A stretch of 64,000 nt of DNA from Anaerolineales bacterium (lineage in GTDB: Bacteria; Chloroflexota; Anaerolineae; 4572-78; J111): assembly GCA_015075185.1 (NCBI GenBank), contig JABTUW010000001.1:1674001-1738000 (forward strand), given 5' to 3'. Under the pieces are notes generated by a model that was not told the origin of the DNA, made no database searches, and saw only the letters and a list, made by a program, of their open reading frames with translations. Of the stretch, positions 50,210-64,000 are shown one piece after another. Both the position numbers and the translations under genes were made by a program. Positions within the stretch are counted from its first letter, which is position 1, and each line of letters begins with the position of its first letter.

Positions 50210-50223
50210 GTCAATCGGGGTGG

Positions 50224-50260
50224 ACGTAGGGGCAGGCCTGAAACCTGCCCCTACGTTGTT
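50224..50260. terminator. Bidirectional terminator, GTAGGGGC-family hairpin
   Basis: Perfect 13-bp stem ACGTAGGGGCAGG (50224-50236) with CCTGCCCCTACGT (50244-50256), 7-base loop and TGTTTTC, between the convergent polyferredoxin and DUF5946-like genes. Confidence 0.8.
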
Positions 50261-50261
50261 T

Positions 50262-50726
50262 TCAACCATCCCGCTTTGTCGCAGGGTTCAGATCCCGGAT
50301 CAAGGCTTCGGTGTCCGTGAGTACGCTTTTCGCCCAGAGTTCGACGTCGGCGCAATAGAAGTCGGGATTGTCCAGCCGGACATCGGCGATGGTCCGGGTC
50401 CAGATCAGCCCCTCCGTTGAAATCTTCTCTCCTGTGGTAATACTCCACTTCCTTTGACGGCTGTCGAGCTTGCGCCGGTTCTGCGCTCTGACCTCCGCCG
50501 GTGTTTTACCCTCCTGGATAAATTGGACCAGCAGCGCTCTTGTGCCTAACCAACCCTGGCGCGAGTAGGCGTTGTGCTGGAGCATATAGCAGGCGACGGT
50601 CAGATGATGGACCGCGCCGTAAGTGGCAGGATTTTCAAACTCTTTAGCCAGGCACAGATCAAAACGATCACGGCACTGTTCCCCGGCCGGAAGCTTGGCC
50701 CCGCAGAGAGGGCAAGGCGGTGACAT
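50262..50726 (-). CDS. DUF5946-like small protein
   Basis: A 154-residue protein. It starts with a small zinc-ribbon-like motif CPLCGAKLPAGEQC, then HHLTVACYMLQHNAYSRQG, a combination typical of the DUF5946 family found in Chloroflexota and actinobacteria. The function is unknown; the family often lacks neighbours in common. The ATG at 50726 follows AAAGGAGTTACC; the frame extends a further 12 codons to 50762 without a better site. No membrane segment or signal peptide. It lies beside a palindromic repeat on its 5' side. Confidence 0.65.
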   Translation of the reverse strand: MSPPCPLCGAKLPAGEQCRDRFDLCLAKEFENPATYGAVHHLTVACYMLQHNAYSRQGWLGTRALLVQFIQEGKTPAEVRAQNRRKLDSRQRKWSITTGEKISTEGLIWTRTIADVRLDNPDFYCADVELWAKSVLTDTEALIRDLNPATKRDG

Positions 50727-50748
50727 CGGGGTAACTCCTTTGTAAATA

Positions 50749-50832
50749 GCCCTCACCCCCAACCCCTCGCTCTGCCCTCCCTACGGTCGTCCCAGGGGGA
50801 GAGGGGAGTCGGGCCAGCGACGGGGTGAGGGC
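50749..50832. repeat. Palindromic repeat (CCCTCACCCCCAACCCC)
   Basis: GCCCTCACCCCCAACCCCTC faces GAGGGGAGTCGGG and CGGGGTGAGGGC over about 85 bases, a known style of long intergenic repeat in filamentous Chloroflexota. It overlaps the region just upstream of the DUF5946-like start. Confidence 0.6.
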
Positions 50833-50852
50833 TTTTCGTCGTGGATCTTGAG

Positions 50853-51434
50853 CTAAGCGGAGGCGTCTTTATTCCGCTGCTTCCTGCGCCGGATGACAAC
50901 AATAGCCAAGCCGCCGAGCAGCCCGCCAATTGAGCCGCAGCAGGTTCCGCCCACCAGGAAGGTCAGGCCCAGCAGGCCGCTGGCGACGTGCTGCCACTTC
51001 CAGACCCGGCCATCCTCCAAAATCGCCAAATTAACCTGGTAGCCGGCCTCGAAATTACAGGCCTGCACCTGGAGGCTGTCAATTACTGGTCGCGGCGGTG
51101 ACGGCACGGTAAAGTGCAGCGGGGGATCGCACGGCGGATTAATCGAAACATCCTGGGGCCAGGCGCTTTCCTCCCAGCACGGGTCTGCGGCGTAGGGCGG
51201 GCAGTAGTAGACCCGCTGGTCCGAGGTTTGGACATAAACAAACCAGGCATACCGGCTCATACCCGTCCCAGCCGCCAGAATTTTTACCGGCCTGGCCGGG
51301 AGCGGCGGCAGAGGCTGCCAGCTTACCAAACTGCCCCGCTGGTAGCCATACCCCAGCCAGCCGCCGGCCAGCCCGCCCAGGAGCAGGAGGGCCAGGGCCA
51401 GCAGGACAAGCGTCCCTGTTTTGGTTCTGTTCAT
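50853..51434 (-). CDS. Hypothetical two-helix membrane protein
   Basis: A 193-residue protein with an N-terminal membrane helix (GTLVLLALALLLLGGLAGGWL) and a C-terminal one (LLGLTFLVGGTCCGSIGGLLGG) followed by a basic tail RRRKQRNKDASA. The 110 residues between are outside the membrane and contain cysteine pairs (VYYCPPYAADPCWEE, NPPCDP), which may form disulfides, and a short repeated-strand look (ILEDGRVWKWQ). I do not recognise the family. No ribosome site is clear before the ATG. Confidence 0.55.
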   Translation of the reverse strand: MNRTKTGTLVLLALALLLLGGLAGGWLGYGYQRGSLVSWQPLPPLPARPVKILAAGTGMSRYAWFVYVQTSDQRVYYCPPYAADPCWEESAWPQDVSINPPCDPPLHFTVPSPPRPVIDSLQVQACNFEAGYQVNLAILEDGRVWKWQHVASGLLGLTFLVGGTCCGSIGGLLGGLAIVVIRRRKQRNKDASA

Positions 51435-51796
51435 TGGGCAGCAACTTTTGAAGATAGGACTTTCGCTTGGATGTCATTTATAATAAACTGGTCACACGAA
51501 TTTGCAAATATGTGCCTCAATTTGGAACCTGTTTGCTCATTCCTGCGTCTACATGGTAATTTGATATTAATGCGGGAGATTTGTACTAAACTGACTATAG
51601 TTTTCCGGTCAAAATCATGTTATAATATCAATGAAAAGTTCGCTTAAAGACTCGCTTCAATCCTGATTCGGTTCACCCCTCCCACTTGCCCCTTGCCTCC
51701 AAGCTTCCGCTCTTCCCTGCCAACGTCTAAAAGAAGCCCTCAAGTCCCAAGTAAGCGTTAGCTCCAAACACAGGCCAATAGCCTGAGGAGGACGCT
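51435..51796. other. Intergenic region upstream of the caspase gene
   Basis: 362 bases between divergent genes with no credible gene. The only recognisable element is the extended -10 at 51618-51626. The base composition becomes AT-richer here than in the flanking housekeeping genes. Confidence 0.4.
51618..51626 (+). promoter_or_regulatory. Extended -10 promoter for the caspase-like gene
   Basis: TGTTATAAT, a perfect TGn-TATAAT extended -10, about 170 bases before the ATG. No good -35 is seen 17 bases upstream. The long leader between it and the start is unexplained. Confidence 0.45.
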
Positions 51797-53485
51797 ATGC
51801 CCAGACGCCTGGCCTTACTGATTGGCAATACAAAGTTTGAAAACTCAAAAAGCTTTCCACCCCTGCGGACACCGATTAATGATGTCCAGGATTTCGCGGC
51901 TGCCCTGCAAAAACACGGCGACTTCGAAATCTTCGATACCCTGATTGATGCGAAGTGTGAGACTATCAATCAACAGATCGAGAATCTGTTCAATAAGGCT
52001 GAACGAGATGATCTGATCCTGTTTTACTATTCCGGTCACGGCTACCGGGGATCGGATGGCCACCATTATCTGGTTGCGCTGAACACCCACCCTGATCTCT
52101 TGCGCTCAACCGGCGTTTCCGAGGCGTTTATTCAGGATATTATGAGCATTAGCCGCTCCCAACAGCGGATTGTGATCCTGGATTGTTGCTTCAGCGGCGC
52201 ATTTGCTGAAGGACGGAAAAGTGGGGTTGGCGAGCCGCTGCAGTTTGATGAATTAAGAGGCGAGGCGACGGCCATTTTGGCCTCGTCGGGCACCATTCAA
52301 TATTCGTTTGAAGAGAAGGGCCGCAATTCACTCTTTACCCGATTTCTGTTGGGGGGCATCGAGACGGGCGAGGCCGACCAGGATGAGGATGGCGGCATTT
52401 CTGTTGATGAACTGTTTAATTATGCGGAATCGCGGGTTAGAGCGATGCGTCCAGAGCAGAAACCAGTCAAAAATGCGGGTGCTAACGAGGACCAGATTTG
52501 TATTGCCAGGAGTCCTGATGGCGCAGCCGTAAAACGCTATAATTTGCCCAATATTCGGGCCTTACTCACCGAGGGTTTCAGCGGCGACGAGCTGCGTGAC
52601 TTTATGTATGATGAGCTCAGGCCGGCCTATGACGAAATCAGCGAGGAAACGGGTAAAAAAGACCTGATCCAAAAGTTGATTGAATGCGCCGAGCAGAAGG
52701 TTTTGTTTGATACCGTTCTTGCCTGGGCCAAAAGCAGCAATGAGACCCAATACGATAAACATAAGCCCTACTATCACAAGGAGCCTCTGCCGCGTGACCA
52801 GGCGCCTCTGCCCAAACCCGAGGTCAAAGCTGAAGAGAAGCCGGCGTTCTACTATAATCGTATTTTCTACGCCCTGGTCGGGCTGGTCGGGCTGGTCGTG
52901 CTGGGGGTGATTGCTGCTGCTTTCTGGCTGGGGCCGCCGAACCCTCCCACCCCTACGCCCGCAACAAGGGGTGGGCCTGGTATTAGCGTTCCCCTCCCAG
53001 CCATCACCGTCGAGAAGCTGGAAGAGGATCTTAACAGAGAAGCCGCTGACCCCCTCCAACCCCGCCGGGGAGATTATATCGCCGTACCTTCCCGCGTCCA
53101 TACCGTGGGGCGGACTGAATTTGTGACTAACTATCAGAGGTATTTGTGGCTCTTTGTCTGCAAGCGGGTTCAGGGCGATATTTTCTGCCAGGCTCAAGAA
53201 TTAAGACTCACCGCTTCAGGCCGTTGGGATGATTTTGTTGACATTGGCGCTGACAATCCACAGGATGATTGTGGCGTGTTTGAGATCAGTTTTGTGGTGC
53301 TGAATGAACAGGCCCACGAGCAGTTCAGTCAAATTGCCAACGGACCGGTGGCCGAGGCTAATCTCCCTGGTGGCGAAGAAAGAGTGCGGTTCGAGGCCAA
53401 GCGCGAGTTGGATAGCCTTGGCCGCTCGATAGCCTGCGAGGCCCTGGCCCGGGCCGCTTCGGTACCGGACCCCGTGGTCAATTGA
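51797..53485 (+). CDS. Caspase-like (C14) protease with effector-associated domain and membrane anchor
   Basis: A 562-residue protein. Residues 1-240 form a caspase domain: LALLIGNTKF, FYYSGHGYRG with the catalytic His at about 81, and VILDCCFSGAF with the catalytic Cys at about 131. DQDEDGGISVDEL at 194-206 is a perfect EF-hand-type loop (DxDxDGxIxxxE), which could make it calcium-responsive as in metacaspases. Residues about 250-320 (NIRALLTEGFSGDELRDFMY, then KDLIQKLIECAEQ and ETQY) look like an effector-associated domain, a bacterial death-fold-like adaptor (EAD7-like by pattern). A membrane helix at about 357-378 is followed by a Pro/Thr stretch and an unrecognised 170-residue domain with DNPQDDCGVFEISF. 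Most likely a membrane-tethered cell-suicide effector. GAGGAGGACGC precedes the ATG. Confidence 0.85.
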   Translation: MPRRLALLIGNTKFENSKSFPPLRTPINDVQDFAAALQKHGDFEIFDTLIDAKCETINQQIENLFNKAERDDLILFYYSGHGYRGSDGHHYLVALNTHPDLLRSTGVSEAFIQDIMSISRSQQRIVILDCCFSGAFAEGRKSGVGEPLQFDELRGEATAILASSGTIQYSFEEKGRNSLFTRFLLGGIETGEADQDEDGGISVDELFNYAESRVRAMRPEQKPVKNAGANEDQICIARSPDGAAVKRYNLPNIRALLTEGFSGDELRDFMYDELRPAYDEISEETGKKDLIQKLIECAEQKVLFDTVLAWAKSSNETQYDKHKPYYHKEPLPRDQAPLPKPEVKAEEKPAFYYNRIFYALVGLVGLVVLGVIAAAFWLGPPNPPTPTPATRGGPGISVPLPAITVEKLEEDLNREAADPLQPRRGDYIAVPSRVHTVGRTEFVTNYQRYLWLFVCKRVQGDIFCQAQELRLTASGRWDDFVDIGADNPQDDCGVFEISFVVLNEQAHEQFSQIANGPVAEANLPGGEERVRFEAKRELDSLGRSIACEALARAASVPDPVVN

Positions 53486-53493
53486 CAGGAGCT

Positions 53494-53623
53494 ACGCGGT
53501 CATGTCATTTCGAGCGACGATAGGAGCGAGAAATCCCTCAAAACGGCTCTTGCAAGACGAGGCATTAGAGATTTCTCCCTCCGCTCCGCTCCGGTCGAAA
53601 TGACATGCTTAGGCTTACCGCGT
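53494..53623. repeat. 130-bp palindromic element (CATGTCATTTCGA)
   Basis: Outer arms ACGCGGT and ACCGCGT, then ATGTCATTTCGA and TCGAAATGACAT, with GAGCGAGAAATCCCT partly matched by AGATTTCTCCCTCCGCTC nearer the centre. Such CATTTCGA-based palindromes are scattered repeats in several phyla. It follows the caspase gene by 8 bases and could act as its terminator. Confidence 0.75.
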
Positions 53624-53652
53624 AAGTTCTATCAATTGAGAGGAGGTAATTT

Positions 53653-54408
53653 ATGAAATCAGTAACCTCTCGCTACTTAGTCCTGGCAGTTGCAGCCCTG
53701 TTGGGTTTGACGCTAATTGCCGCAGGTCCAAACGCGCCTGCAGCGGCCAGAGACTCATTCAGGTTTAACCTTAGTTCGGACTACGGCGACTCAGACACCT
53801 CTGCTGATTTTACCGTCTTGCAAGCTGGCTGTATTCTGGCCCAGATTCCCTCGTGGACCGCTTCCGGCAGTATCCAGAAGGCGGAAGAACTATCTCTGGT
53901 CCTTTATGGACCCGATACATCTGGCTATTACGCCCGCAGTGATGGCAGCGCTTCCAGTATCGTCCCCTTGTGGACCAGCTACGCGGCGCAATCTTCAGAC
54001 GTTGGGTCGCTAGACCAATGGAGGATTTCGGTGTTTAACTTTTCCAAGAGCGGGACGGCTCAAGGAACGGTCTCCTTCGAATACCCACCTACCCCGATGC
54101 CCTGCGAATTCAGGGCGGCCATATCCCGCGACCGCACCTCGGGCAAAGTCGTCTTGAGCTGGCGCTACACGGGCGTGCCCTTCCGTAGTAGCAGCTTTCT
54201 GGTTGAGCGTTCAACCAACGGTAGACAGTGGAGCGTGGTCAGGGATTGCGCCCAGGAATTCTCAAGCCAATCCGATGATTATGCCTGCGCCGACAACGGT
54301 TTGACCAGCGGCGCCACCTACTACTATCGCGCCTGCACCACCCCGAACACAGACTGTACCGGCATTGACGCCACCACCACGCCGCCGGTCTCGATCCAGG
54401 CGCCATGA
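53653..54408 (+). CDS. Secreted protein with fibronectin-type-III-like domain
   Basis: A 251-residue exported protein. The signal peptide is YLVLAVAALLGLTLIAAGPN. The first part of about 110 residues is not recognised (CILAQIPSWTASGSIQKAEE) and contains a GTVSFEYPPTP end. The C-terminal 100 residues look like a fibronectin III fold (GKVVLSWRYTGVPFRSSSFL, then TSGATYYYRACTTPN). It probably acts at the cell surface as a binding module. GAGGAGGTAATTT precedes the ATG. It is the next gene after the caspase but separated from it by the 130-bp palindrome. Confidence 0.68.
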   Translation: MKSVTSRYLVLAVAALLGLTLIAAGPNAPAAARDSFRFNLSSDYGDSDTSADFTVLQAGCILAQIPSWTASGSIQKAEELSLVLYGPDTSGYYARSDGSASSIVPLWTSYAAQSSDVGSLDQWRISVFNFSKSGTAQGTVSFEYPPTPMPCEFRAAISRDRTSGKVVLSWRYTGVPFRSSSFLVERSTNGRQWSVVRDCAQEFSSQSDDYACADNGLTSGATYYYRACTTPNTDCTGIDATTTPPVSIQAP

Positions 54409-54430
54409 ACTGCGGACAACATCCTCGTAG

Positions 54431-54853
54431 TCATCCCTGTGGGTAGGTTTGGATCATATAACTGACCGACTGCCGGATCAGTTCGCTCAGGGTGGGCAGA
54501 TCAACATCGGCCAGGCGCTTGACATACAAACACGACTTGCCGGTGGTATATTTGCCCAGCCGTTGCATGAGGTCGCCGTAGCGGTCGAAGCCGGCCATAA
54601 TATACACGGTCAAATTCTGTTTGCGGGGCGAAAAGCCGGTCAGGAAGTAATCACCCTCCTGCCCGCTGGCGTATTTGTAATGGTAGCTGCCAAAGCCGAC
54701 CATGCTGCTACCCCACATGCGCGGCTCGCTCCCCGTAATCTCGCGCATCAGCTTGACCAGGGCCAGGCAGTCCAGCCGTTTCTGCTCAGGGCTGACGCCC
54801 TGGAGAAACTGCTCCACGCTTTGCTCGGTTGGTTTTGTTTTGAGTTCCGCCAT
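54431..54853 (-). CDS. DUF1801 domain protein
   Basis: A 140-residue protein of the DUF1801 (YdhG-like) family. The family core is visible in KLMREITGSEPRMWGSSMVGFGSYHY, and LTVYIMAGFDRYGDLMQRLG follows; family members are small stand-alone proteins whose function is unclear (some are called iron chaperone-like). No membrane segment. A truncated second copy lies at 55726-55953, sharing the first 58 residues with about 91% nucleotide identity by eye. The ribosome site is AAGGGGGC before the ATG. It sits downstream of, and in the same direction as, the toxin-antitoxin-like cassette. Confidence 0.85.
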   Translation of the reverse strand: MAELKTKPTEQSVEQFLQGVSPEQKRLDCLALVKLMREITGSEPRMWGSSMVGFGSYHYKYASGQEGDYFLTGFSPRKQNLTVYIMAGFDRYGDLMQRLGKYTTGKSCLYVKRLADVDLPTLSELIRQSVSYMIQTYPQG

Positions 54854-54889
54854 TTGGTATTGCCCCCTTTTTGACCTGAGCCACTCAAA

Positions 54890-55108
54890 CTAGGCAACTA
54901 CAGGGGTGAGTTTGAAAACCCGAGCCAGGCGTGCGGCTGCCTTAAGGTCTCCCCGGCGCAGGGCCAAGCGGACCTCATCCAATTTTTGAGCGTCGGTCAG
55001 GGAGAGATAAGGCGACCATGCCTCGTCGGTATAGATAAGTTCGACCTCGACCTCGGCCACGTATTCCCCTTCGTGGACAAGTTTTGAAAGCTGTCTTTTT
55101 GTCATCAC
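54890..55108 (-). CDS. Small protein, third gene of a toxin-antitoxin-like cassette
   Basis: A 72-residue protein not named, beginning [20 protein letters not shown] and ending [23 protein letters not shown] helices (the exact tail reads [14 protein letters not shown]). It has no membrane segment. The ATG overlaps the stop codon of the DUF4258 gene by four bases (ATGA). Proteins of this size paired with DUF4258 genes act as antidotes in several TA systems, so I infer an antitoxin role. Confidence 0.6.
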
Positions 55109-55425
55109 TTTCTCCTCATATAATCGTCAGACCATTGGTCCGGGTCGGGCCTGTAAGCTGTCACTAAAACAGCAGGGGCAGAAGCTTGCTTTGGAATGCC
55201 CCAAACCACATGGATAGGGTTATTTTGAAGATCATACTGAAGCACCAACACGCAAGGACCTTTGGGATAATCAGGATAATCTTCTAAGATGACCCCGCTC
55301 GATACACCTGATATGACGTCTCGCACAAAAATATTATCATTAGCCAGTTCATCGTAGCCATGCGCTGATATTCTTATCTCGCCACGTTCAATAAGTACTA
55401 ACACCTGCTGGAATAGTTGACTCAT
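55105..55425 (-). CDS. DUF4258 domain protein, probable RelE/ParE-like toxin
   Basis: A 106-residue protein with a DUF4258 core: [41 protein letters not shown] and [13 protein letters not shown]. The fold is related to the RelE/ParE/BrnT toxin superfamily. The ATG overlaps the stop of the DUF433 gene by four bases, and its own stop overlaps the next start by four, so the three genes are translated together. Toxicity is inferred from the family, not shown. Confidence 0.75.
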
Positions 55426-55655
55426 AAAGCGGCTTCTAACAAATAGACTCTTTCATTCCGTAGCATATCACAGGCATAGGCCAGGCAGGCTTGAATATCT
55501 TCGGCCTCCAAGCCAGGATAGTTGCACAGTATTTCGTCCTGGGGCCAGCCTTGCGCTAACAGGTCAAGAATAAACTCAACCGCCAGCCGGGTGCCTTTGA
55601 TAATGGGCTTGCCGACAAGAATTTTCGGATCAATCACTATTCGTTCTTCCCACAT
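55422..55655 (-). CDS. DUF433 domain protein, probable VapB-like antitoxin
   Basis: A 77-residue protein with a DUF433 helix-turn-helix: [55 protein letters not shown]. The family includes antitoxins of type II systems, usually paired with a PIN-like toxin. Here the next gene is a DUF4258 protein instead. The ATG at 55655 follows AGAGGAAATACATT; an upstream extension to 55691 lacks support. First gene of the three-gene cassette. Confidence 0.8.
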
Positions 55656-55725
55656 AATGTATTTCCTCTTTTTACTGCTACTGAGAATCACAAACCGGTG
55701 AGCGGTTTGCTAAGCATAGGTAAAA

Positions 55726-55953
55726 TCATACCTCAAGCGCAGCAAATAATCTAACCCCAATTGCTCCCTTTGCCGCAAAATGGTAGCTGCCGAAACCGAC
55801 CATGTTATTACCCCACATGCGCGGTTCGCTCCCCGTCATCTCGCCCATCAGCTCGACCAGGGCCAGGCAGTCCTGCCGTTTCTGCGCCGGGCTGACGCCC
55901 TGGAGAAACCCCTCCACGCTTTGCTCAGTTGGTTTTGTTTTGAGTTCCGCCAT
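55726..55953 (-). pseudogene. Truncated DUF1801 copy
   Basis: The first 58 residues match the DUF1801 protein at 54431-54853 (MAELKTKPTEQSVE, PRMWGNNMVGFGSYH), then the sequence departs into FAAKGAIGVRLFAALEV and a stop. The similar segments are 54679-54853 and 55779-55953, with about 15 differences over 175 bases by eye. The conserved family C-terminus is missing, so it is probably non-functional. Duplicate and full copy bracket the TA-like cassette. Confidence 0.8.
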
Positions 55954-56037
55954 GTTTTGCTCCTGCTGGGGTTAGCGCTGTGTTCGGGTCGAAGAATTTG
56001 GCAAATGAGGGTTTGATCTGATGGTCCATCTTTTAGC

Positions 56038-57546
56038 TCACATATAAAACTTGTACTGCGATTGAATGACTCCACCTTCTGAGATATGCTTCATGATCTC
56101 ACCTACTTTATGAGAAAAGGAGAGTGTAATTGGTGTACCATCTGCGAAAGAACAGTTATTTACATTCATTTTAGTCAGGACTAATACCTCTCGAAGCAAT
56201 TCTTTAGGCGAACTTCCACCTATATGCTGTATAACTTGCCAGGGTTCTGGTACATATGGTCTCGGATATGTCTCCAGGTAAGGGATAAATCCCATTGTAT
56301 ACAAAAAATGTTGCTCGTTTTCAACGCAAAAATATGTACCTCTAAGCGGGGGATAATTGCCCTCACGAAATAGACGGATACCTGATTGGTTTAAAGCTAC
56401 AAAATCCGCTTCACAGCTAGGAAAAATGGACTCTATCCCCTCATACAAGCCATCAATTTCGTTATGTTCTCCCCTTTCAGCTCCCCAAAATTTGGAGGTC
56501 TTATGAATCACTACACGGCTTGGTGGATTACCTCGGATTTTTATATACTCTTTAAGTATATCACCTATGAGTTTTTTTGCTCGCTCCGTAGTTAAATGAG
56601 GCATCTTCCCCAATTTATCTGCATCCCACTTGAATTGCTCCCCTCTTAAAACAAGACCTTGCCCTAAATAATCAAAAGCCTGGGCTACACTTGAACGCAT
56701 AGTTAACGAGGCATCAGAAGCTTGTGCTACATAGAAACTAATCCCTATGTAACAAGTATCTGGTTCTAAAGTAGTCGGTCTCCAAGGTATGCCACCAGCC
56801 TTATAATATTGAGCTGTACAGAAATTCCAAGCACGAGTAGCAATTTCTTGTACATCTCGCTTGCCTTCAATGGTCCGGCGTTTAATGAGCTGTACTGGTA
56901 TTGGGGTAGGTTGTCTCATAGCCCTCGCTTTGATTTCTCTACGTAGGTCTAGAAAAAAGTTACCTGATATCCGAACAGTATCAGCTAACGTTACCATATC
57001 AGAAGTTAAGGCGATAATAATAATATTGGGTGTTGGGTCGGTTTGGGTGATACTGGCTAAACTATCCTCAATTAAATCAGCTAATGCTAAAACCCTATCT
57101 TGTTTGGGTTCAATATCGAGGACTCTTTTTAACTCCCTGGGATTAATGTGTCGTTCCCATAAAGGATTCGTCTGAAACTCACATTGAAACGGCGATTCTT
57201 TGTTAAACCCAACAAAGTCACGGTTAATAATTTTATTAAAACGACGTAATGTTTGGTAAGTAGCTTCATCTTCTGACAAGGTTACTTCTTGTTCTTCTGG
57301 TTTAACCCGTATAGTTTCAATATTCTCGCTCTCAATATGAGAAGAGCATTTCTCTATCCATTCCTGTGCATCTGAGATAGTTTCACGTGTTCCAATAAAC
57401 CCAAGCTTTATTTCTGATGGATGAAAACCTACCACATTCTTGCCAAATGGCCCATACTCCGCTAGACCCGTTTTGCTATCCTCGTGCTCAAAATAATCCC
57501 CAAATTCAAGTTTTGGCTCTTTAAAATATTCTGTCTCAATATGCAT
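56038..57546 (-). CDS. Short prokaryotic Argonaute (MID-PIWI), catalytically inactive type
   Basis: A 502-residue protein. The C-terminal half is a PIWI domain: TTLEPDTCYIGISFYVAQAS, then SSVAQAFDYLGQGLVLRG, PSRVVIHKTSKFW and the family end ELLREVLVLTKMNVNNCSF followed by ITLSFSHKVGEIMKH. N and PAZ domains are missing, as in short pAgos. The first catalytic Asp position reads GIS instead of GID, and the third reads HKTSKF, so the DEDX tetrad is not preserved: it should bind guide and target but not slice. The region of residues about 150-260 is the MID domain for guide 5'-end binding (LADLIEDSLASITQT to KRRTIEGKRDVQEIATRAWN). The ATG at 57546 lies inside the last codons of the upstream gene (11-base overlap) with GAGG upstream. 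The codons are AT-rich. Confidence 0.93.
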   Translation of the reverse strand: MHIETEYFKEPKLEFGDYFEHEDSKTGLAEYGPFGKNVVGFHPSEIKLGFIGTRETISDAQEWIEKCSSHIESENIETIRVKPEEQEVTLSEDEATYQTLRRFNKIINRDFVGFNKESPFQCEFQTNPLWERHINPRELKRVLDIEPKQDRVLALADLIEDSLASITQTDPTPNIIIIALTSDMVTLADTVRISGNFFLDLRREIKARAMRQPTPIPVQLIKRRTIEGKRDVQEIATRAWNFCTAQYYKAGGIPWRPTTLEPDTCYIGISFYVAQASDASLTMRSSVAQAFDYLGQGLVLRGEQFKWDADKLGKMPHLTTERAKKLIGDILKEYIKIRGNPPSRVVIHKTSKFWGAERGEHNEIDGLYEGIESIFPSCEADFVALNQSGIRLFREGNYPPLRGTYFCVENEQHFLYTMGFIPYLETYPRPYVPEPWQVIQHIGGSSPKELLREVLVLTKMNVNNCSFADGTPITLSFSHKVGEIMKHISEGGVIQSQYKFYM

Positions 57547-58930
57547 CTTCGGCCTCATCCTCATCCGGTTGACCAAGTAAGTCAAAAAAGCTGAGATTCT
57601 TTATGTCTTCGATTTCGTCATACGTGGCAGGGTCGTAAGGAATGGAAAATTCAGCTATGGCAAAAGCAGGTCTTCGTTCAATTGCAATGATAGGTTCATC
57701 ATCCGAACGTGAGTCTAATTTTATTCGAGCAACTACGGCTTGAGAATTTAATCCGGCTAAAGAATCAGACCAAAACAAAACATGATTTCGCACATGTTGA
57801 TTGGTTTCTCTAGCCTTCTTACGAGTTGTGTAAGAGCCGACCTTATTTGAATCAAATGGAATGATACCATCCTGTGTAAAGAAATACTTCGGAATGATTT
57901 GCAAGAACCAAGATTTACCGAATTTTTTAAAACTTAAATCAGCAGCAAGATGTCTCCAAAATTTATCATAACCATATTCATAATACTTTGCCACAGTCCT
58001 GATAGATGTACGTCCTGTAATTATGTTAAACCATCTCTGCTTATACTCTTTTACAGTTGCATCAGGCTTTATCACGAAATAGTGTCTGTTAAAATCTTTA
58101 TCATATCTAATACCAAATCTGCGTAAGTGATTAGTCAGCATTTGATTCAGTAAATCAACATAATGCCGGCTTCCCACTTCATCTTGCCATAAAGTTTCTG
58201 ATAACTCCCAACTGACATTCTTTGTATCATAATGATCTCTGAAAATACAGCCTTCGTTACTGAGGTCTGAGAAGGTGTAGAGCCTCTGATTAACAACAAT
58301 GAATGGTGGGGTAAAGCCTTGTATATGCTTCCAAATATCTTCACGTCTTTTTGCCTGACACGGAGCAGACCATACTTTTTCAGGCCATTTTTGGAGCCTC
58401 AGTAAATTTGAGAAAAGTCGCTCCTTTTGATTGAATGATATGCGGGGTGGGCTTATACCTGCAATTTCTTGAAGGCGAGACAAACAATTAGGGGTAAATT
58501 CATCAACCGCTTTGCCAAAATCTATTTTGAAGGGAGGATGCCATACATTCGGAGTGGTTTTTATATATGACTTGACATCTTTCCAATAGAGTTTATCATC
58601 ATCAGGATGATAAATTATGTAAATTACAGGATAGCTAGATTTGTGCCAAAGGTCCAAATCATCTTTAGAAATGCCTCTGGCCGAAAAACTGGTTGATGTA
58701 TCACTGACGATATAACTTGCACCGGATTTAGCTTGAACCTTAATAATTCCACCTGTAGCTTCATAGCCTTTTCCATCCGGCTTCGGTATTACAACTTCTA
58801 TTTCTCCGTCTATTCCGAAGTCATCTTTTGTTAACTCACGCCAAATGCATTTCATTTCGTGAATTACAATATTTATCCGGTCTAAACCTTTCCATTCGCT
58901 AAACTTAGAGGGTAATACAGTTTTTGGCAT
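57536..58930 (-). CDS. DUF4365-nuclease/APAZ fusion (DREN-APAZ) partner of the short Argonaute
   Basis: A 464-residue protein. The N-terminal DUF4365 domain (about 1-170) is a PD-(D/E)XK-type nuclease: DFGIDGEIEVV supplies the acid (about Asp41) and GGIIKVQAKSG the Q-x-K pair (about Gln66, Lys68); DDLDLWHKSSYPVIYIIYH closes the fold. The C-terminal part is an APAZ domain, the Argonaute-docking region (YDKFWRHLAADLSFKKFG, LQIIPKYFFTQDG, HVRNHVLFWSDSLAG). The pairing with a short pAgo and this domain order match the SPARDA group, in which guide-directed target recognition turns on indiscriminate DNA and RNA degradation. The nuclease residues look intact. The ATG at 58930 is favoured; a GTG three codons earlier (58939) is possible. 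Confidence 0.92.
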   Translation of the reverse strand: MPKTVLPSKFSEWKGLDRINIVIHEMKCIWRELTKDDFGIDGEIEVVIPKPDGKGYEATGGIIKVQAKSGASYIVSDTSTSFSARGISKDDLDLWHKSSYPVIYIIYHPDDDKLYWKDVKSYIKTTPNVWHPPFKIDFGKAVDEFTPNCLSRLQEIAGISPPRISFNQKERLFSNLLRLQKWPEKVWSAPCQAKRREDIWKHIQGFTPPFIVVNQRLYTFSDLSNEGCIFRDHYDTKNVSWELSETLWQDEVGSRHYVDLLNQMLTNHLRRFGIRYDKDFNRHYFVIKPDATVKEYKQRWFNIITGRTSIRTVAKYYEYGYDKFWRHLAADLSFKKFGKSWFLQIIPKYFFTQDGIIPFDSNKVGSYTTRKKARETNQHVRNHVLFWSDSLAGLNSQAVVARIKLDSRSDDEPIIAIERRPAFAIAEFSIPYDPATYDEIEDIKNLSFFDLLGQPDEDEAEDAY

Positions 58931-58972
58931 GACACACACTTTTCACTGCTGAGGATAATTGTATGTGGATAT

Positions 58973-58981
58973 ATTATATCA
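58973..58981 (-). promoter_or_regulatory. Extended -10 promoter for the SPARDA operon
   Basis: On the reverse strand TGATATAAT (TGn-TATAAT) lies about 43 bases before the ATG at 58930. No -35 match is seen, as usual for extended -10 sites. The adjacent stretch to 59180 is AT-rich and holds no gene. Confidence 0.55.
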
Positions 58982-59181
58982 TAAAGCATCACTTTAGACG
59001 CCAACAGACTGTTTCGCTTAACCATTCGAAAAAAATTTGGAGTAACAAGTAATTCTAATTTTAGAATTCGTTTTATCACACCTATGACTCCCCAGGCAAT
59101 ACCCTAACAAGAGCCAGCTTTTGGCTGATCTAAAACTTGCAGTAAGTTCGGGCCAACCTTGCCTTTAGCTTGACTCGAATC

Positions 59182-59335
59182 ATTGGCCTGTTCTGAAAGA
59201 ACTATTGGCTTGTTCTGGGAGAACTATTGGCATGTTTTGGGAGAATCATTGGCTTGTTTTGGGAGAATCATTGGCTTGTTCTGGAAGAACCATTGGCTTG
59301 TTCTGGAAGAACTATTGGCATGTTTTGGGCCGGGG
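59182..59335. repeat. Seven tandem 22-bp units with palindromic GTTCTnnnAGAAC cores
   Basis: Units begin ATTGGC(T/A/C)TGTT(C/T)TG and run 22 bases each from 59182; the seventh ends near 59335. In five units the core is palindromic or nearly so (GTTCTGGGAGAAC, GTTCTGGAAGAAC, GTTCTGAAAGAAC). The copies are not separated by unique spacers, so this is not CRISPR. It may be an operator or iteron-like cluster, or simply a minisatellite. Confidence 0.85.
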
Positions 59336-59406
59336 TTGGCAGGAGGGGTAAACTTTTAAAAACAAGCCTCCCGGCGGTTTCAAGACACCGGGAGTCTCCT
59401 AATACC

Positions 59407-59439
59407 AGACCTGCCAGGTTTGTTAAACCTGGCAGGTCT
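59407..59439. repeat. Palindrome AGACCTGCCAGGTTT, terminator-like
   Basis: Perfect 15-bp stem AGACCTGCCAGGTTT/AAACCTGGCAGGTCT with a GTT loop, ten bases before the stop of the DUF4469 gene on the reverse strand. A common repeat style; can terminate transcription from that side. Confidence 0.75.
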
Positions 59440-59448
59440 ACAGAAAGT

Positions 59449-60147
59449 CTAACCAACCGTCAGCGTTGCATTGAGGCTGCCGCTGCGCAGGCTGCTGGAG
59501 TTCAGCATGGTCCGCACTTCCAGGGTGTAGTCGCCGGAGGGCAGGCCGGCCGGGACCAGGAACATCAGCTCGGTGTTGGTGTTTTTGCCCACCACCTCAA
59601 CCCGGACCTCATCACCCTTGCCGCCGCTAAAAAAGATGCCCTGCGAAGTGTCGGCGGGATCGAACTTGAGCTTGTCGCCGGCCAGTTGGCCCATGCCGCC
59701 GGGGGTCAGGCGGCTGTCGCGCTCGCCGCTGTTCAGATCGGTGTACTCCAGCGGGCGCGGGCGGACTTCGCCGGCCGGTTGTTTTTGGGCCTGGGCGTTG
59801 ATCTGGATGGCCCGGCGAAGCTGCGGGCCGGGGCTGGTGGTCGCTTCAATCCAGTTGCGGCTGGGGATGAAGCCGTCCGTCTGGCCGTCAAAGTTGCCTT
59901 TAACGCTCATGCCGCAGTTGACCAGCGGCGTGTTGACCCGGAAGCCGTCCAGCAGCAGCCCTTCGACAATGGTGAAGAAGTCCATGAGCACGGCGTAGGC
60001 GTCGGCCTCGGTCGTGGTCGAACCGCGGGCGACCATGCGCTTGATGATGTCGTTCATGGTGATGGTGCCGCTGGATTGGACAATGGCCCGGTAGTGGTTG
60101 GCCCCGTTGGTGAGGGGGTTGCGGTGTAATGAATACCAAATCGGCAT
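59449..60147 (-). CDS. HU/IHF-like DNA-binding protein with DUF4469 C-terminus
   Basis: A 232-residue protein. The N-terminal part (IIKRMVARGSTTTEADAYAV, DFFTIVEGLLLDGFRVNTPL) has the helix and strand arrangement of HU-type DNA-binding proteins in the Bvu_2165/DUF4469 group; the C-terminal immunoglobulin-like DUF4469 domain includes NTELMFLVPAGLPSGDYTLE. The first residues MPIWYSLHRNPLTNGANHYR are typical of this family. It is expected to bind DNA; function is unknown. The ATG at 60147 follows AAGGAGG. The frame extends upstream to 60351 only across repeat-like DNA, so the shorter start is correct. Confidence 0.8.
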   Translation of the reverse strand: MPIWYSLHRNPLTNGANHYRAIVQSSGTITMNDIIKRMVARGSTTTEADAYAVLMDFFTIVEGLLLDGFRVNTPLVNCGMSVKGNFDGQTDGFIPSRNWIEATTSPGPQLRRAIQINAQAQKQPAGEVRPRPLEYTDLNSGERDSRLTPGGMGQLAGDKLKFDPADTSQGIFFSGGKGDEVRVEVVGKNTNTELMFLVPAGLPSGDYTLEVRTMLNSSSLRSGSLNATLTVG

Positions 60148-60269
60148 AAAAGGGAGCCTCCTTAGCTCCGGTGGAATAAGGTTAAAAATAAACAATGTTA
60201 GGATTTTAACCTTAGAAAGCTTAAAAAAACACCCCAGGAATTGGGGGTTTTGGGGGTATAAAACTTGAA

Positions 60270-60842
60270 CCACGAAAGAGCGAAGTTGATACAAAGGCAC
60301 GAAAAAATGATAGGAGATGCTGAAAAGAAACCATTTTTGTCCCGTTCGCAAACAAGTTGAACTTTATTCCCTGGCTCAAGGCGCGAGGCTGAAGCCATCG
60401 CACTGAGAGAGCAAAGCTCTACGAGCTAAATTAGCCCACCGGGCTTCGCTCTTTTAGTCCGACGGCTTCAGCCTCGGCTACCAACCGCAAGGCCATGTTG
60501 TGCAACATCTTTGCGAACACCACAAAAAGAAGCCATTTTCGTGCCTTTTTCACTTTCGTGAGGGTCGTGTTTCTAAACCTGCCCTAAAATGAATGAACCA
60601 CGAAAGGGCGAAGTTGATAAAGGCACGAAAAAATTATACGAGGTGCTGAAAAGAAGCCATTTTCGTGCCTTTTTCACTTTCGTGAGGGTCGTGTTTCTAA
60701 ACCTGCTCCAAAATGAATGAACCACGAAAGGGCGAAGTTGATAAAGGCACGAAAAAATGATAGGAGGCGCTAAAAAAACCGTTTTCGTGCCTTTTTCACT
60801 TTCGTGAGGGTCGTGTTTCTAAACCTGCTCCAAATTGAATGA
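60270..60842. repeat. Tandem 124-bp palindromic units (about 2.7 copies)
   Basis: Unit 2 (60597-60720) and unit 3 (60721-60842) start ACCACGAAAGGGCGAAGTTG and end TCACTTTCGTGAGGGTCGTG plus TTTCTAAACCTGC. Within a unit the ends are inverted: AAAGGCACGAAAA with TTTTCGTGCCTTT. Unit 1 is split, with its front half at about 60270-60335 and its back half at about 60525-60596, because about 190 bases with another hairpin lie inside. Together these fill the 749-base gap between the DUF4469 and PD-(D/E)XK genes. Confidence 0.85.
60384..60476. repeat. Nested hairpin element (CGAGGCTGAAGCC)
   Basis: CGAGGCTGAAGCCATCGCACT faces AGTCCGACGGCTTCAGCCTCG (19 of 21 pairs by eye) with an inner AGAGCAAAGC/GCTTCGCTCT stem. 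It interrupts unit 1 of the 124-bp repeat array, so it is probably a mobile insertion into that repeat. Confidence 0.7.
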
Positions 60843-60896
60843 ACTCGAGGCAGTGAAGCGCTGGCAATTGGAACGATAATTTTATATAATGGGGCT

Positions 60897-61625
60897 ATGG
60901 TCATTCAGGAAACCCTGAACTATCTTTTTGATCATAAACCCCACCTTCTCGCGCCGCACCTCACGCCCTGGATGAGTGAACTGCCCCGCTTCGCCGACTT
61001 TGTGGCAGCGCACCGGGACAAGATCCGTAAGAAAATCAGGGGGAGCCGCAGCGCCGACGGGTTGCAGGACCTGCGGGCCGAACTGGAAACAGCCTATTTA
61101 TTCCTCCGCGAAAAGCGTTTTACCCTGGCCTATGAGCCTTACGGCAAAGGGACGGGACGCGGGCCTGATTTTGCGGTGACCTTCAGAACCCGGCTCACCT
61201 TTAATGTCGAGGTCACGCGCATGCGGCTCTCTATTCGCGAGCAGGATGCAGGCGAGCCGCCTCTCTTTGACCCGCAGGCTGAAGGCCGGCGGCTGGCCGA
61301 AATTGTAGGCAGTAAACTTAGCCAGATGTTACCCGGCATGATGAATCTCCTGGTGATTGTGGCGGATCAGCCGGCCCTGTGTGAGCTGGAGGTGGGCCAG
61401 GTGATGAACCAACTCAAGGAGCGGGCCGAACAAAAAGAAGCCCGGTTATTCCAGCGGCACAGCTTTCGCCACACCGCCGATTTCTTCAAGTACTACCAGC
61501 GCCTCAGCGGCGTTTGGCTCAGAAGTACGGGCCAGCATGAAACCGGAAAATGCCCCGTTTTGTGGCTAAACAACCAGACTAAACACCCGCTGCCTGCGCC
61601 TGTTTGTACGATCCTTCAGCGATAA
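60897..61625 (+). CDS. PD-(D/E)XK nuclease-like protein
   Basis: A 242-residue protein not placed in a named family. It has LRAELETAYLFLREKRFTLA, then GPDFAVTFRTRLTFNVEVTR, a Glu-helix followed by PDF and an E-V-T motif as in PD-(D/E)XK-type folds, with Thr in place of the usual Lys. Activity is therefore doubtful. The C-terminal half is helical (QVMNQLKERAEQKEARLF). The ATG at 60897 is immediately preceded by AT-rich DNA (TTTATATAATGGGGCT), whose TATAAT at about 60880-60887 could be a -10 box giving a very short leader; no ribosome site is clear. It lies in the accessory region after the repeat array. Confidence 0.55.
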   Translation: MVIQETLNYLFDHKPHLLAPHLTPWMSELPRFADFVAAHRDKIRKKIRGSRSADGLQDLRAELETAYLFLREKRFTLAYEPYGKGTGRGPDFAVTFRTRLTFNVEVTRMRLSIREQDAGEPPLFDPQAEGRRLAEIVGSKLSQMLPGMMNLLVIVADQPALCELEVGQVMNQLKERAEQKEARLFQRHSFRHTADFFKYYQRLSGVWLRSTGQHETGKCPVLWLNNQTKHPLPAPVCTILQR

Positions 61626-61658
61626 TTCCTCATCTTCATCATTCGCCGGTCGCCCCAC

Positions 61659-61692
61659 ACAAAAGAGCTATCCAAAATAGCTCTTTTGTCAG
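61659..61692 (+). terminator. Intrinsic terminator
   Basis: A 12-bp stem ACAAAAGAGCTA/TAGCTCTTTTGT with a 7-base loop, 34 bases after the nuclease-like gene. Confidence 0.7.
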
Positions 61693-61755
61693 CTCACAAG
61701 CCGCCCAAATGAGTGTAGACAAGCGGGCCGGAAGACGGTAAGCTTGGAAACCAGA

Positions 61756-63009
61756 ATGCTGAAACAAGTTTCCGTCTTTTGGGCTAAACGAATAAGCGGG
61801 CTGCCCGCCCTGCCGGTTGTCTTCTCCATCTCCTTCTCCTACCTGCTGTCGCTGGGCCTGATCGGCGGGGGCGTTTATCTGCTCTGGGCATGGTCTCGAC
61901 GGGCCTGGGCCTACAACCCGCAGCTTGATCGTTACGGGTTTGACCCGAACGTCGGTTTCAACCTGCCGACCGCCCTCCTGGCCGCCGGGCTGGCCCTGCT
62001 GCTCTGGGCCTTCGCCGGGGGCTGGCTGATGCGCGGGCTGGGCAGCCTGATAAGCCGCTCCCGGACCAGGGGCGACCGGCCCCGGGACACGCGCCACGGG
62101 CGGGTGCAGCGCCTGCCCCGGCCCGATGGGTCGGAGCTGCAGGTCGAGTTCTACGGCCCGGAGCACGGCCCGACGATTATCCTGACCCACGGCTGGAGCT
62201 TTAACAGCACGGAGTGGTACTACGCCAAGCAGGCCCTGAGCCAGCACTTCCGGCTCATCGTCTGGGATTTGCCGGGACTGGGCCGCTCGACCCGGCCCGG
62301 CAATAACGACTACAGCCTAGAAAACCTCGCCCACCACCTCGAAGCCGTGTTGGCCCTGGCCGGCGGCCAGCCGGCCATCCTGCTGGGGCACAGCATCGGC
62401 GGCATGATCACCCTGACCTTTGCCCGCCTCTTTCCCGACCTCCTGGCTACCCGTGTGGCCGGGCTGGTCCTGGTCCATACCACTTACACTAACCCCGTCC
62501 GCACCATTGACAACGCCGACCTCTACACCGCCCTGGAGCGGCCGGTGCTGGTGCCGTTGTTACACCTGGCTATCTGGCTGTCGCCGCTGGTCTGGCTGCT
62601 CAATTGGCTGAGCTATCTCAACGGCATGACCCACGTCTTCACCAAGCAGAACGGCTTTGCCGGGAGCGAAACCTGGGATCAAGTGGAGTTCTTCGCCCGG
62701 CTCCAGTCGCAAGCCGCCCCGGATGTTCTGGCCCGCGGGATGTTAGGCATGCTCCACTACGACGCCACCGACGCGCTGCCGCAGATTGACATCCCCACCC
62801 TGGTGATACCGGCCGATCACGATCCCATCTGCAGACCAGAGGCCAGCCAGCGCATCCACCAGGATATGCCGGCGGCCCAGCTCGCGCCGCTGGCCCCGGC
62901 CAGGCATATGGGCTTTATTGAGCATCATGAGCAGTTTGCTAAAATTGTGGGGGATTTTACCCGCGCCTGCTTCGCTGCGCCCACCCACCAACCCGTGCTG
63001 CCCAGGTAA
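61756..63009 (+). CDS. Alpha/beta hydrolase, membrane-anchored
   Basis: A 417-residue protein with two N-terminal membrane helices (FSISFSYLLSLGLIGGGVYL and LPTALLAAGLALLLWAFAGG) and a hydrolase domain. The nucleophile elbow is LLGHSIGGMITL, the oxyanion strand TIILTHGWSFNS, the acid lies in VIPADHDPICRPE and the histidine in PARHMGFIEHH. WDLPGLGRSTRP matches the usual second signature. The substrate is unknown; the enzyme is probably on the membrane surface. The ATG at 61756 is preceded only by TTGGAAACC, so the start is uncertain; a TTG at 61744 is the alternative. Very GC-rich, unlike the neighbours on its left. Confidence 0.83.
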   Translation: MLKQVSVFWAKRISGLPALPVVFSISFSYLLSLGLIGGGVYLLWAWSRRAWAYNPQLDRYGFDPNVGFNLPTALLAAGLALLLWAFAGGWLMRGLGSLISRSRTRGDRPRDTRHGRVQRLPRPDGSELQVEFYGPEHGPTIILTHGWSFNSTEWYYAKQALSQHFRLIVWDLPGLGRSTRPGNNDYSLENLAHHLEAVLALAGGQPAILLGHSIGGMITLTFARLFPDLLATRVAGLVLVHTTYTNPVRTIDNADLYTALERPVLVPLLHLAIWLSPLVWLLNWLSYLNGMTHVFTKQNGFAGSETWDQVEFFARLQSQAAPDVLARGMLGMLHYDATDALPQIDIPTLVIPADHDPICRPEASQRIHQDMPAAQLAPLAPARHMGFIEHHEQFAKIVGDFTRACFAAPTHQPVLPR

Positions 63010-63058
63010 ACAGCAGATAACGTTCATAATAAGGTTAAGAGTAATTGAAGCCCCACTA

Positions 63059-63131
63059 TGGGACGCGGATTAAATGGATCAAACGAATTTAAGACATTTT
63101 TATCCGAAAAATCCGTCGAATCCGAGTCCCA
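63059..63131. repeat. Palindromic element (TGGGACGCGGATT)
   Basis: TGGGACGCGGATT (63059-63071) pairs with AATCCGAGTCCCA (63119-63131) with one mismatch. Its middle has GGATCAAACG and ATCCGAAAAATCCG segments, giving further partial pairing. Confidence 0.65.
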
Positions 63132-63150
63132 TTTCCCACGAGTCTTATTG

Positions 63151-63241
63151 TCAGGACTTACGCAAAACGCATCCTGAATAGGCCGAGCGAAGCGAGTGCC
63201 GTATCGAAGGGCGTGTTTTGCGGCAGTTGCATGAGTCCTGA
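63151..63241. mobile_element. MITE-like element, 91 bp, ends TCAGGACT
   Basis: The left end TCAGGACTTACGCAAAACGC matches, inverted, the right end GCAGTTGCATGAGTCCTGA (TCAGGACTyAyGCAA shared). The interior is a GCGTGTTTTGCG-type stem. TCAGGACTTACGCA-like ends are typical of IS-derived MITEs. No target-site duplication is obvious. It sits 80 bases before the ABC ATPase start. Confidence 0.6.
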
Positions 63242-63320
63242 TTTTTGTAAACTTGCCCCTGTGCTCACTCTCATATATGATATTAACGTGTTGAACGTTC
63301 CAACATTCAACATTAACGCC

Positions 63321-64000
63321 ATGCCCAACTCACCCGAAATCATCGTCAATTTTAACGCCATGTCCTTTGTCTACCCCGGCGGAGCGACCATCTTTCAGGA
63401 TTTCTCCTGGCAGGTCAAGCGGGGCGAAACGTGGGCCATCATCGGGCCAAGCGGCTGCGGCAAGAGCACCCTGCTCTATCTCATCGCCGGGCTGCGTAAA
63501 CCCAGCAGCGGCCAGCTGCTGGTAGATAACCAGCCCATCACCCGGCCCCGGCCCCAAACCGGCCTGATTTTGCAGGATTACGGCCTCTTACCCTGGGCCA
63601 CGGTCTGGGATAACGCCGCCCTGGGGCTGGATATTCGCCGCTTTTACGGGCCTGACGGCAAGCACACCCCGCTGGACGAGTCTTTCGGCGATCAGCAGGC
63701 GCGGGTGGATTACTGGCTGGACCGCCTCGGCATTCGCCACGTGGCCCGGCAGTATCCTAACCAGATTTCCGGCGGCCAGCGCCAGCGCACGGCCATCGCC
63801 CGCACCCTCGTCCTCAATCCCGATTTGCTGTTGATGGATGAACCGTTCGGCGCGCTCGACGCCCTGACCCGCGAGGATTTGCAGCGGCTTACCCTGGAAC
63901 TCGGCGCCGAACGCAAGCTGACCACCATCCTCGTTACCCACAACATTGACGAGGCTGTTTTTATGGGCCGGCAGATCATGGTCTTGACCCAGCCGCCGAC
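63321..64000 (+). CDS. ABC transporter ATPase, NitT/TauT/SsuB type, N-terminal part
   Basis: Open from the ATG at 63321 to the right edge (226 codons read, no stop). It has Walker A IIGPSGCGKSTLLYLIAGL, Q-loop LILQDYGLLPW, ABC signature ISGGQRQRTAIARTLV, Walker B LLLMDEPFGALDALTRE and the switch His in VTHNIDEAVFMG. The pattern GLLPWxTVxDN is typical of the SsuB/TauB/NrtD/ThiY-partner ATPases. The ABC binding protein at 24923-25885 belongs to the same transporter class but is 37 kb away on the other strand. The permease may lie beyond the window. Confidence 0.92.
   Translation, partial: MPNSPEIIVNFNAMSFVYPGGATIFQDFSWQVKRGETWAIIGPSGCGKSTLLYLIAGLRKPSSGQLLVDNQPITRPRPQTGLILQDYGLLPWATVWDNAALGLDIRRFYGPDGKHTPLDESFGDQQARVDYWLDRLGIRHVARQYPNQISGGQRQRTAIARTLVLNPDLLLMDEPFGALDALTREDLQRLTLELGAERKLTTILVTHNIDEAVFMGRQIMVLTQPP

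Follow-up and report, generated by a model that had tools for sequence, protein, structure and literature searches.

A short Argonaute and DUF4365-APAZ operon of an Anaerolineales genome, placed apart from the structurally solved SPARDA systems

Organization of the operon

A 64,000-nucleotide stretch of DNA from an Anaerolineales bacterium (contig JABTUW010000001.1, positions 1,674,001 to 1,738,000; hereafter the window) carries, on its minus strand, two overlapping genes encoding a short prokaryotic Argonaute (pAgo) and a partner protein that joins a DUF4365 (DREN) nuclease domain to an APAZ domain, the make-up of a SPARDA system. The effector gene (57536..58930) encodes 464 amino acids from an ATG, with catalytic residues D41, Q66 and K68, or 467 from a GTG three codons upstream (to 58939); the pAgo gene (56038..57546) encodes a MID-PIWI protein of 502 residues from an ATG, or 515 from a TTG. 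The two reading frames share 11 bases (57536..57546), where the pAgo ATG and the partner TGA lie out of frame with one another, just as the original prediction, made from the letters alone, had placed them. The same gene order, partner then pAgo, with an out-of-frame overlap of 11 to 20 bases, recurs in all six relatives with upstream DNA: 11 bases in L010, 20 in L011, 11 or 20 in L077 (depending on the start chosen), and 14 in L008, L009 and L012, which are near-copies (L009 and L012 are 98% identical to L008). A seventh locus, L013, was omitted, as it holds only a partial pAgo at a contig end. Order and overlap being kept in six of six, this is a conserved operon rather than a chance neighbourhood.

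Upstream of the operon, 42 bases from the ATG, lies an extended -10-like element, TGATATAAT (58973..58981, minus strand), and this site is the single minus-strand occurrence of TGNTATAAT in the window (three lie on the plus strand). The original prediction had read it as a promoter shared by both genes; the motif is present, while promoter status must be considered unproven, because scanning 55700-59500 for sigma-70 sites, -35 box included, returned 8 sites, no excess over the 9.4 expected from shuffled sequences. Two tandem repeats were also observed, one of 22 bases close upstream of the operon (6.9 copies, 59177-59328) and one of 124 bases further out (2.6 copies, 94% matches, 60525-60844).

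Family and fold assignment

Profile, solved-structure and fold searches agree on both proteins, and the pair is therefore a short pAgo with a DUF4365-APAZ partner, SPARDA by domain make-up, as the original prediction had proposed. The published name likewise follows domain make-up, and also covers SMEK, MRR and HNH forms (PMC12205087). The partner matches Pfam DUF4365 at 6.2e-21 and the PADLOC model Aga_REase-PNTD1-PNTD2 at 4.3e-74 over residues 3-438, APAZ included; DUF4365 is its only Pfam match, with no TIR, SIR2 or HNH effector, and the system is thus not SPARTA, SPARSA or SPARHA. Its closest solved chain by sequence is 9om4_A, aligned over the APAZ region (residues 139-397, 1.6e-24), followed by the DUF4365-APAZ chain 9qbp_A (residues 15-392, 1.3e-20). 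No Pfam or NCBIfam model matches the pAgo, which is covered end to end by PADLOC pAgo_I (1.3e-149, residues 4-502), and its closest solved chains are those of AcaSPARHA (9om4_B, 1.4e-87) and NbaSPARDA (9jsb_A, 3.2e-62). Profile searches recovered no N or PAZ domain, leaving MID and PIWI only, in keeping with the predicted PIWI protein lacking both; profile comparison, which the original prediction had named as its check, thus lands both proteins in short pAgo and APAZ families.

AlphaFold single-chain models (mean predicted local distance difference test score, pLDDT, 85.6 and 81.3) have SPARDA and SPARHA chains as their top fold matches. The pAgo model matches 9om4_B with a template modelling (TM) score of 0.82, and the partner model matches SPARDA and SPARHA chains that show APAZ alone with target-normalised TM scores of 0.71 to 0.81. 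Against the EaeSPARDA chain 9qbp_C, the partner model is a strong match (E 1.1e-27), with a whole-chain TM of only 0.47 and a root-mean-square deviation of 15.6, so that the orientation of the domains differs.

Phylogenetic position

The alignments took in 58 of the 120 listed pAgo relatives (of 1612) and 60 of the 120 listed partners (of 349). The pAgo tree (52 rows, omitting L009, L012 and clade rows P0009, P0028, P0096 and P0120, which had been taken first) places the window pAgo in a 17-row clade (support 100/100), which a DUF4365 system of Hymenobacter joins on a long branch (98/87). Nba, Xau and Eae, the classic DUF4365 SPARDAs, form a separate clade together with SMEK systems (18 rows, 100/99), and HNH systems form a third branch (the AcaSPARHA group of four rows, two of them partial; 100/99). 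The SPARTA rows lie far off, as do two of the three SIR2 rows, while the third (L047) falls on a long branch among the wider nuclease-linked systems. At least five effector changes are required on this tree.

A single clade of all DUF4365 rows, the window system and the characterised SPARDAs included, was rejected by approximately unbiased (AU) tests on the 52-row pAgo tree (p 0.00138), on a 44-row version lacking eight long, partial or distant rows (p 0.00607), and on the 41-row APAZ tree, from which three SPARTA rows were omitted (p 0.000183); this constraint was chosen after the first tree had been viewed. On the APAZ tree, the classic group also takes in one SIR2 row and SMEK rows, so that DUF4365 is split there as well. 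SPARDA by domain make-up is accordingly not one lineage on the pAgo and APAZ trees, and the operon represents a branch apart from the structurally solved SPARDAs, bearing out the earlier suggestion of a divergent lineage.

Whether DUF4365 itself was gained more than once is a separate matter. A 35-row tree of DUF4365 domains by themselves keeps the 27 Ago-linked ones together on one side, though weakly supported (73/86); its eight other rows are domains from Chloroflexota genomes assumed not to be Ago-linked, with neighbouring genes read for a minority of them, and three of the eight (L085, L087, L088) scarcely match the DUF4365 model. Independent gain was not upheld, the domain tree showing neither one nor two gains.

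Nuclease, guide-binding and contact residues

Residues described for NbaSPARDA (PMC12205087) were mapped by alignment, and all 30 that were looked up matched the letters given in that paper; pAgo counts refer to 64 clade sequences, with positions taken from sequence alignments. On the partner, the PD-(D/E)XK nuclease residues are intact: D41, Q66 and K68 (Nba D41, Q60 and K62) are kept in 65 of 65 clade sequences. The pAgo retains the RKQTNK guide-pocket motif (as defined in PMC6299218) as R202, K206, Q219, T225, N241 and K249, invariant in the clade save for T225 (63/64). The residues that would hold the guide 5'-phosphate (R202, K206 and K249; Nba R183, K187 and K240) and those at nucleotide 2 (Q233 and N241; Nba Q224 and N232) are each present in 64/64, so that the 5'-phosphate pocket is intact by alignment, and the DREN-docking residue E30 of Nba is equally invariant (64/64).

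Judged by sequence position, S270 and T350 would occupy the places of catalytic-motif aspartates in active Agos; an aspartate at 270 is found in 5 of 64 clade members. The Nba first-nucleotide pocket, W159 and W201, is replaced by D189 and K222 in the window pAgo, and tryptophan occurs at these positions in 0/64, as compared with 2/11 (W159) and 9/11 (W201) classic SPARDAs.

The clade also carries its own pAgo segment, an insert of ~30 residues at about residues 76-105 (57232..57321, minus strand), modelled with pLDDT under 50 and predicted to be unordered. The stretch from E72 to F111 spans 37-47 residues in 64/64 clade members, whereas the SMEK-linked pAgo encoded elsewhere in this genome has 15; between matched alignment columns, it measures 36-45 residues in 17/17 clade rows and 7-22 in outside rows, two partial outside rows having no sequence at that place. 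Nba N86, which reportedly contacts DREN (PMC12205087), aligns about ten residues beyond the insert, and we speculate that the insert could play a role in DREN docking.

Proposed mechanism

By analogy with NbaSPARDA, TmuRE-Ago, XauSPARDA and AcaSPARHA, from which an RNA guide, a DNA target, an inactive PIWI domain, activation by oligomer or filament formation, collateral cutting and abortive defence would carry over, we consider it highly probable that the operon encodes a SPARDA-type heterodimer that senses invader DNA with RNA guides and is activated, as an oligomer, for indiscriminate cutting. The pAgo and the DUF4365-APAZ protein are predicted to pair; the heterodimer would load a small guide RNA and, so loaded, bind complementary invader DNA; the bound complexes would likely assemble into oligomers, whose DUF4365 domains would cut nucleic acids indiscriminately, and the infected cell would be stalled or killed. 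RNA-guided, DNA-triggered collateral cutting has been demonstrated for Nba (PMC12205087) and Tmu (PMC10810196).

Several observations weigh against a simple transfer from Nba. The residues contacting the guide sugar and backbone, S447, N451, R221 and R459, are kept in 0, 0, 2 and 1 of 64, which counts against assuming that guides are handled identically, though S447 and N451 vary in classic SPARDA also. TmuRE-Ago prefers guides with a 5'-OH and a 5'-U (PMC10810196), and guide chemistry therefore cannot be read from an intact 5'-phosphate motif. Of the PIWI-PIWI residues of Nba, R287, E253, E360 and F256 occur in none of the 64 clade members, and K324 and R285 in one each (the counterpart of E360 falls on S377 or C378 in different alignments of a gapped stretch); R285 gives the sharpest contrast, being R in 11/11 classic DUF4365 pAgos vs. 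1/64 clade members (0/17 clade rows in a smaller alignment). On the partner, several DREN tetramer residues of Nba are changed (W for E13, L for R33 and R for D31) and E45 is kept. Nba R122, a DREN-docking residue that is R in 10/11 classic rows, is F in the window system. Of two flanking window genes scanned against PADLOC, moreover, only one matched, as a caspase-domain protein.

Not all of these losses are equally telling. Q29, D31 and R33 vary among classic SPARDAs too, so that their loss says little, and the Nba tetramer residues were rejected as a family hallmark. AcaSPARHA, listed as a filament structure, likewise lacks the Nba PIWI-PIWI residues, and their absence therefore predicts different contacts rather than the absence of a filament. 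Given the residue differences of the clade, we expect it to follow the same logic as the known SPARDAs, though with a first-nucleotide preference other than the 5'-AU rule of Nba and with oligomer contacts of its own. That short-Argonaute nucleases arise as effector domains are swapped on a shared Ago-APAZ platform, and that the clade constitutes a second DUF4365 machine on it, with its own effector exchange, a different first guide base, a different oligomer and an extra pAgo segment gating nuclease docking, is a tentative proposal that we regard as doubtful.

The same differences would also suit guided defence in which DUF4365 is a targeted nuclease acting at the bound DNA rather than collaterally: the insert is unique, and clade-specific residues occupy the known oligomer contacts, so activation could differ. 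This strikes us as quite unlikely, since Nba and Tmu cut collaterally on activation (PMC12205087, PMC10810196) and the catalytic residues and APAZ fold are the same.

Probable recent acquisition and genomic surroundings

The operon has a GC content of 39.0%, with flanks of 54.5 and 56.6% in a window of 55%, and its AT-richness suggests that it was likely acquired recently. Beside its 3' end lies a truncated second DUF1801 copy (55726..55953, minus strand), possibly an insertion scar: a 175-base piece (55779-55953), ending about 85 bases from the pAgo stop, aligns at 91.4% identity with a portion of the intact gene at 54431-54853, which starts 1.1 kb away. AT-richness was rejected as a clade trait, as only L011 of six relatives shows a like drop (41.5% vs. 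56-57%); the drop is smaller in L009 and L012, and none is clear in L008, L010 and L077. The sister species G001, the only further genome of the genus that the search covered, yielded neither a pAgo match nor a clean empty site; its single DUF1801 gene (L112:4163-4582) stands beside a homologue of window 50262-50762, and the region has therefore been rearranged.

The sharp GC drop, the truncated gene at the operon edge, the absence of a pAgo match in that sister genome and a promoter unsupported by the scan could all point to a recently acquired cassette that is intact in sequence and yet silent or decaying, without function. Both frames are open, the key residues are intact and full-length relatives 80-87% identical exist, however, and we judge this explanation decidedly improbable.

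Among the surrounding features, DUF433, DUF4258 and a 72-residue open reading frame form a toxin-antitoxin-like row between the intact and truncated DUF1801 copies (54431-55953). The caspase-domain protein (51797-53485; Peptidase_C14 1.7e-23, PADLOC caspase 6.6e-14) lies about 2.5 kb from the operon, and a dispersed repeat of ~150 bases (53481-53648) recurs at 15 other places in the genome (84-93% identity) and in the sister species too. No RNA family reached its gathering score in window 50000-64000, and no tRNA was found in the window. A flanking polyferredoxin has its best organism-named matches in Chloroflexota, with Clostridium further down, consistent with the predicted Chloroflexota-like genome.

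Relatives and distribution

A search with the window pAgo gave 1612 relatives at E up to 0.001 among 7998 proteins scored, of which the best 120 (the window's own included) are at least 59% identical to it; PF14280 is present in all of the best 120 of 349 partner relatives. Named entries among the matches listed come from Thermoflexales, Chloroflexota, Coleofasciculus and Syntrophobacteraceae. The original prediction had tentatively linked a possible divergence to an unusual host, an explanation at odds with a clade that also holds Planctomycetota members (L010, L077) and entries named Coleofasciculus and Syntrophobacteraceae.

Any pAgo relative was detected in 11/400 Chloroflexota genomes (own included), 15/294 Planctomycetota genomes (the centre included), 2/41 genomes related to the window's own (that one included, the other being of the same class) and 100/72,556 plasmids, all of the last below 60% identity. 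Among these genome matches, only the window's own and two from Planctomycetota (59-60% identical) resemble the window clade, the rest being more distant; a further clade member, L009, is held by the named Anaerolineae strain Ornatilinea apprima P3M-1. No match was found in 50,697 phage records, and viral contigs gave one distant pAgo locus (33% identical).

Defence genes adjoin four clade loci, by scans at L008, L009 and L011 and by sequence identity at L012: a Septu-like ATPase and an Mrr-like nuclease at L008, a type I restriction gene at L009 and a 99.7% identical one at L012, and an Hma-like ATPase at L011. Two of the other genes scanned beside the relatives gave no match. It is extremely improbable that the short pAgo chiefly controls host genes or the copy number of plasmids through guided binding to DNA, with immunity secondary, as a pure regulator would not be expected to have a partner whose nuclease residues are intact and defence genes adjoin the relatives, although plasmid carriage of distant relatives (100/72,556 records) would fit plasmid competition.

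Other short pAgo loci

The same genome encodes a second short pAgo operon (L007:5703-8611, G000:C5), comprising a SMEK-APAZ protein of 496 residues (SMEK_N 2.2e-38) and a pAgo of 473 residues that is 36% identical to the window pAgo over residues 110-502. It is also AT-rich (37.6% vs. 55-59% GC).

Additional arrangements came to light elsewhere. Three Planctomycetota genomes contain a TIR-APAZ gene with a short pAgo (L079:921-4092, L080:1144-4171, L082:1022-4088); on both pAgo trees their pAgos group with nuclease-linked systems and not with SPARTA, and their APAZ regions score 110-120 bits with a window-clade profile, whereas three SPARTA rows reach no more than about 5; short pAgos linked to TIR may thus have arisen a second time. 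A viral contig of 67 kb (IMGVR_UViG_2884622180_000001) encodes a DUF4062 protein directly upstream of a short pAgo (L113:3609-6425), which may be a further effector type; DUF4062 is reportedly a TIR-like NADase (PMC13174449). In a Chloroflexota genome, an Mrr-TIR-APAZ double effector, a type already described, adjoins a short pAgo (L029:2277-4022).

Comparison with known systems

A clade that keeps the catalytic and guide-phosphate residues while changing the reported contacts offers a natural test of which contacts matter. The NbaSPARDA authors left open whether other SPARDAs are activated as filaments (PMC12205087). Filament structures are recorded, by deposited title, for XauSPARDA (9qcc) and for the HNH relative AcaSPARHA (9om4); the former leaves the question of sharing in place, Xau belonging to the same classic tree group as Nba. 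A different first-base pocket would widen the range of guides usable in detection tools based on collateral nucleases, and the presence of DUF4365 and SMEK systems in one genome makes division of labour between two short pAgos addressable in a single host. DUF4365-APAZ proteins were already described by Ryazansky (2018) as part of the diverse APAZ group IIb, and some clade members may therefore already be in that tree; no experimental paper on a Chloroflexota SPARDA or on SPARHA was among the literature matches listed, for which journal coverage is partial.

NbaSPARDA, XauSPARDA and EaeSPARDA resemble the window pair in domain make-up, DREN catalytic triad, RK-type guide pocket and overall folds. 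The window pair differs from them in its separate place on the pAgo and APAZ trees and in lacking the W159/W201 pocket, and its clade almost never keeps their PIWI-PIWI contacts and adds an insert of ~30 residues. AcaSPARHA (HNH-APAZ with a short pAgo, 9om4) is the best solved match of the window pAgo, in sequence and fold, and of APAZ by sequence, but HNH replaces DUF4365 and the system occupies its own branch on the pAgo tree. SMEK-APAZ systems share the short pAgo, the nuclease-APAZ operon and the RK-type pocket, and differ in their SMEK effector and in their place on the pAgo tree, beside the classic DUF4365 SPARDAs instead of the window pAgo. SPARTA and SPARSA have in common with it a short pAgo and an APAZ partner, whereas their effectors are TIR or SIR2 NADases. 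TmuRE-Ago of Thermocrispum municipale, compared here by its published description, is also a DUF4365-APAZ system, with RNA-guided, DNA-triggered degradation of DNA (PMC10810196), and is set apart by its preference for 5'-OH and 5'-U guides.

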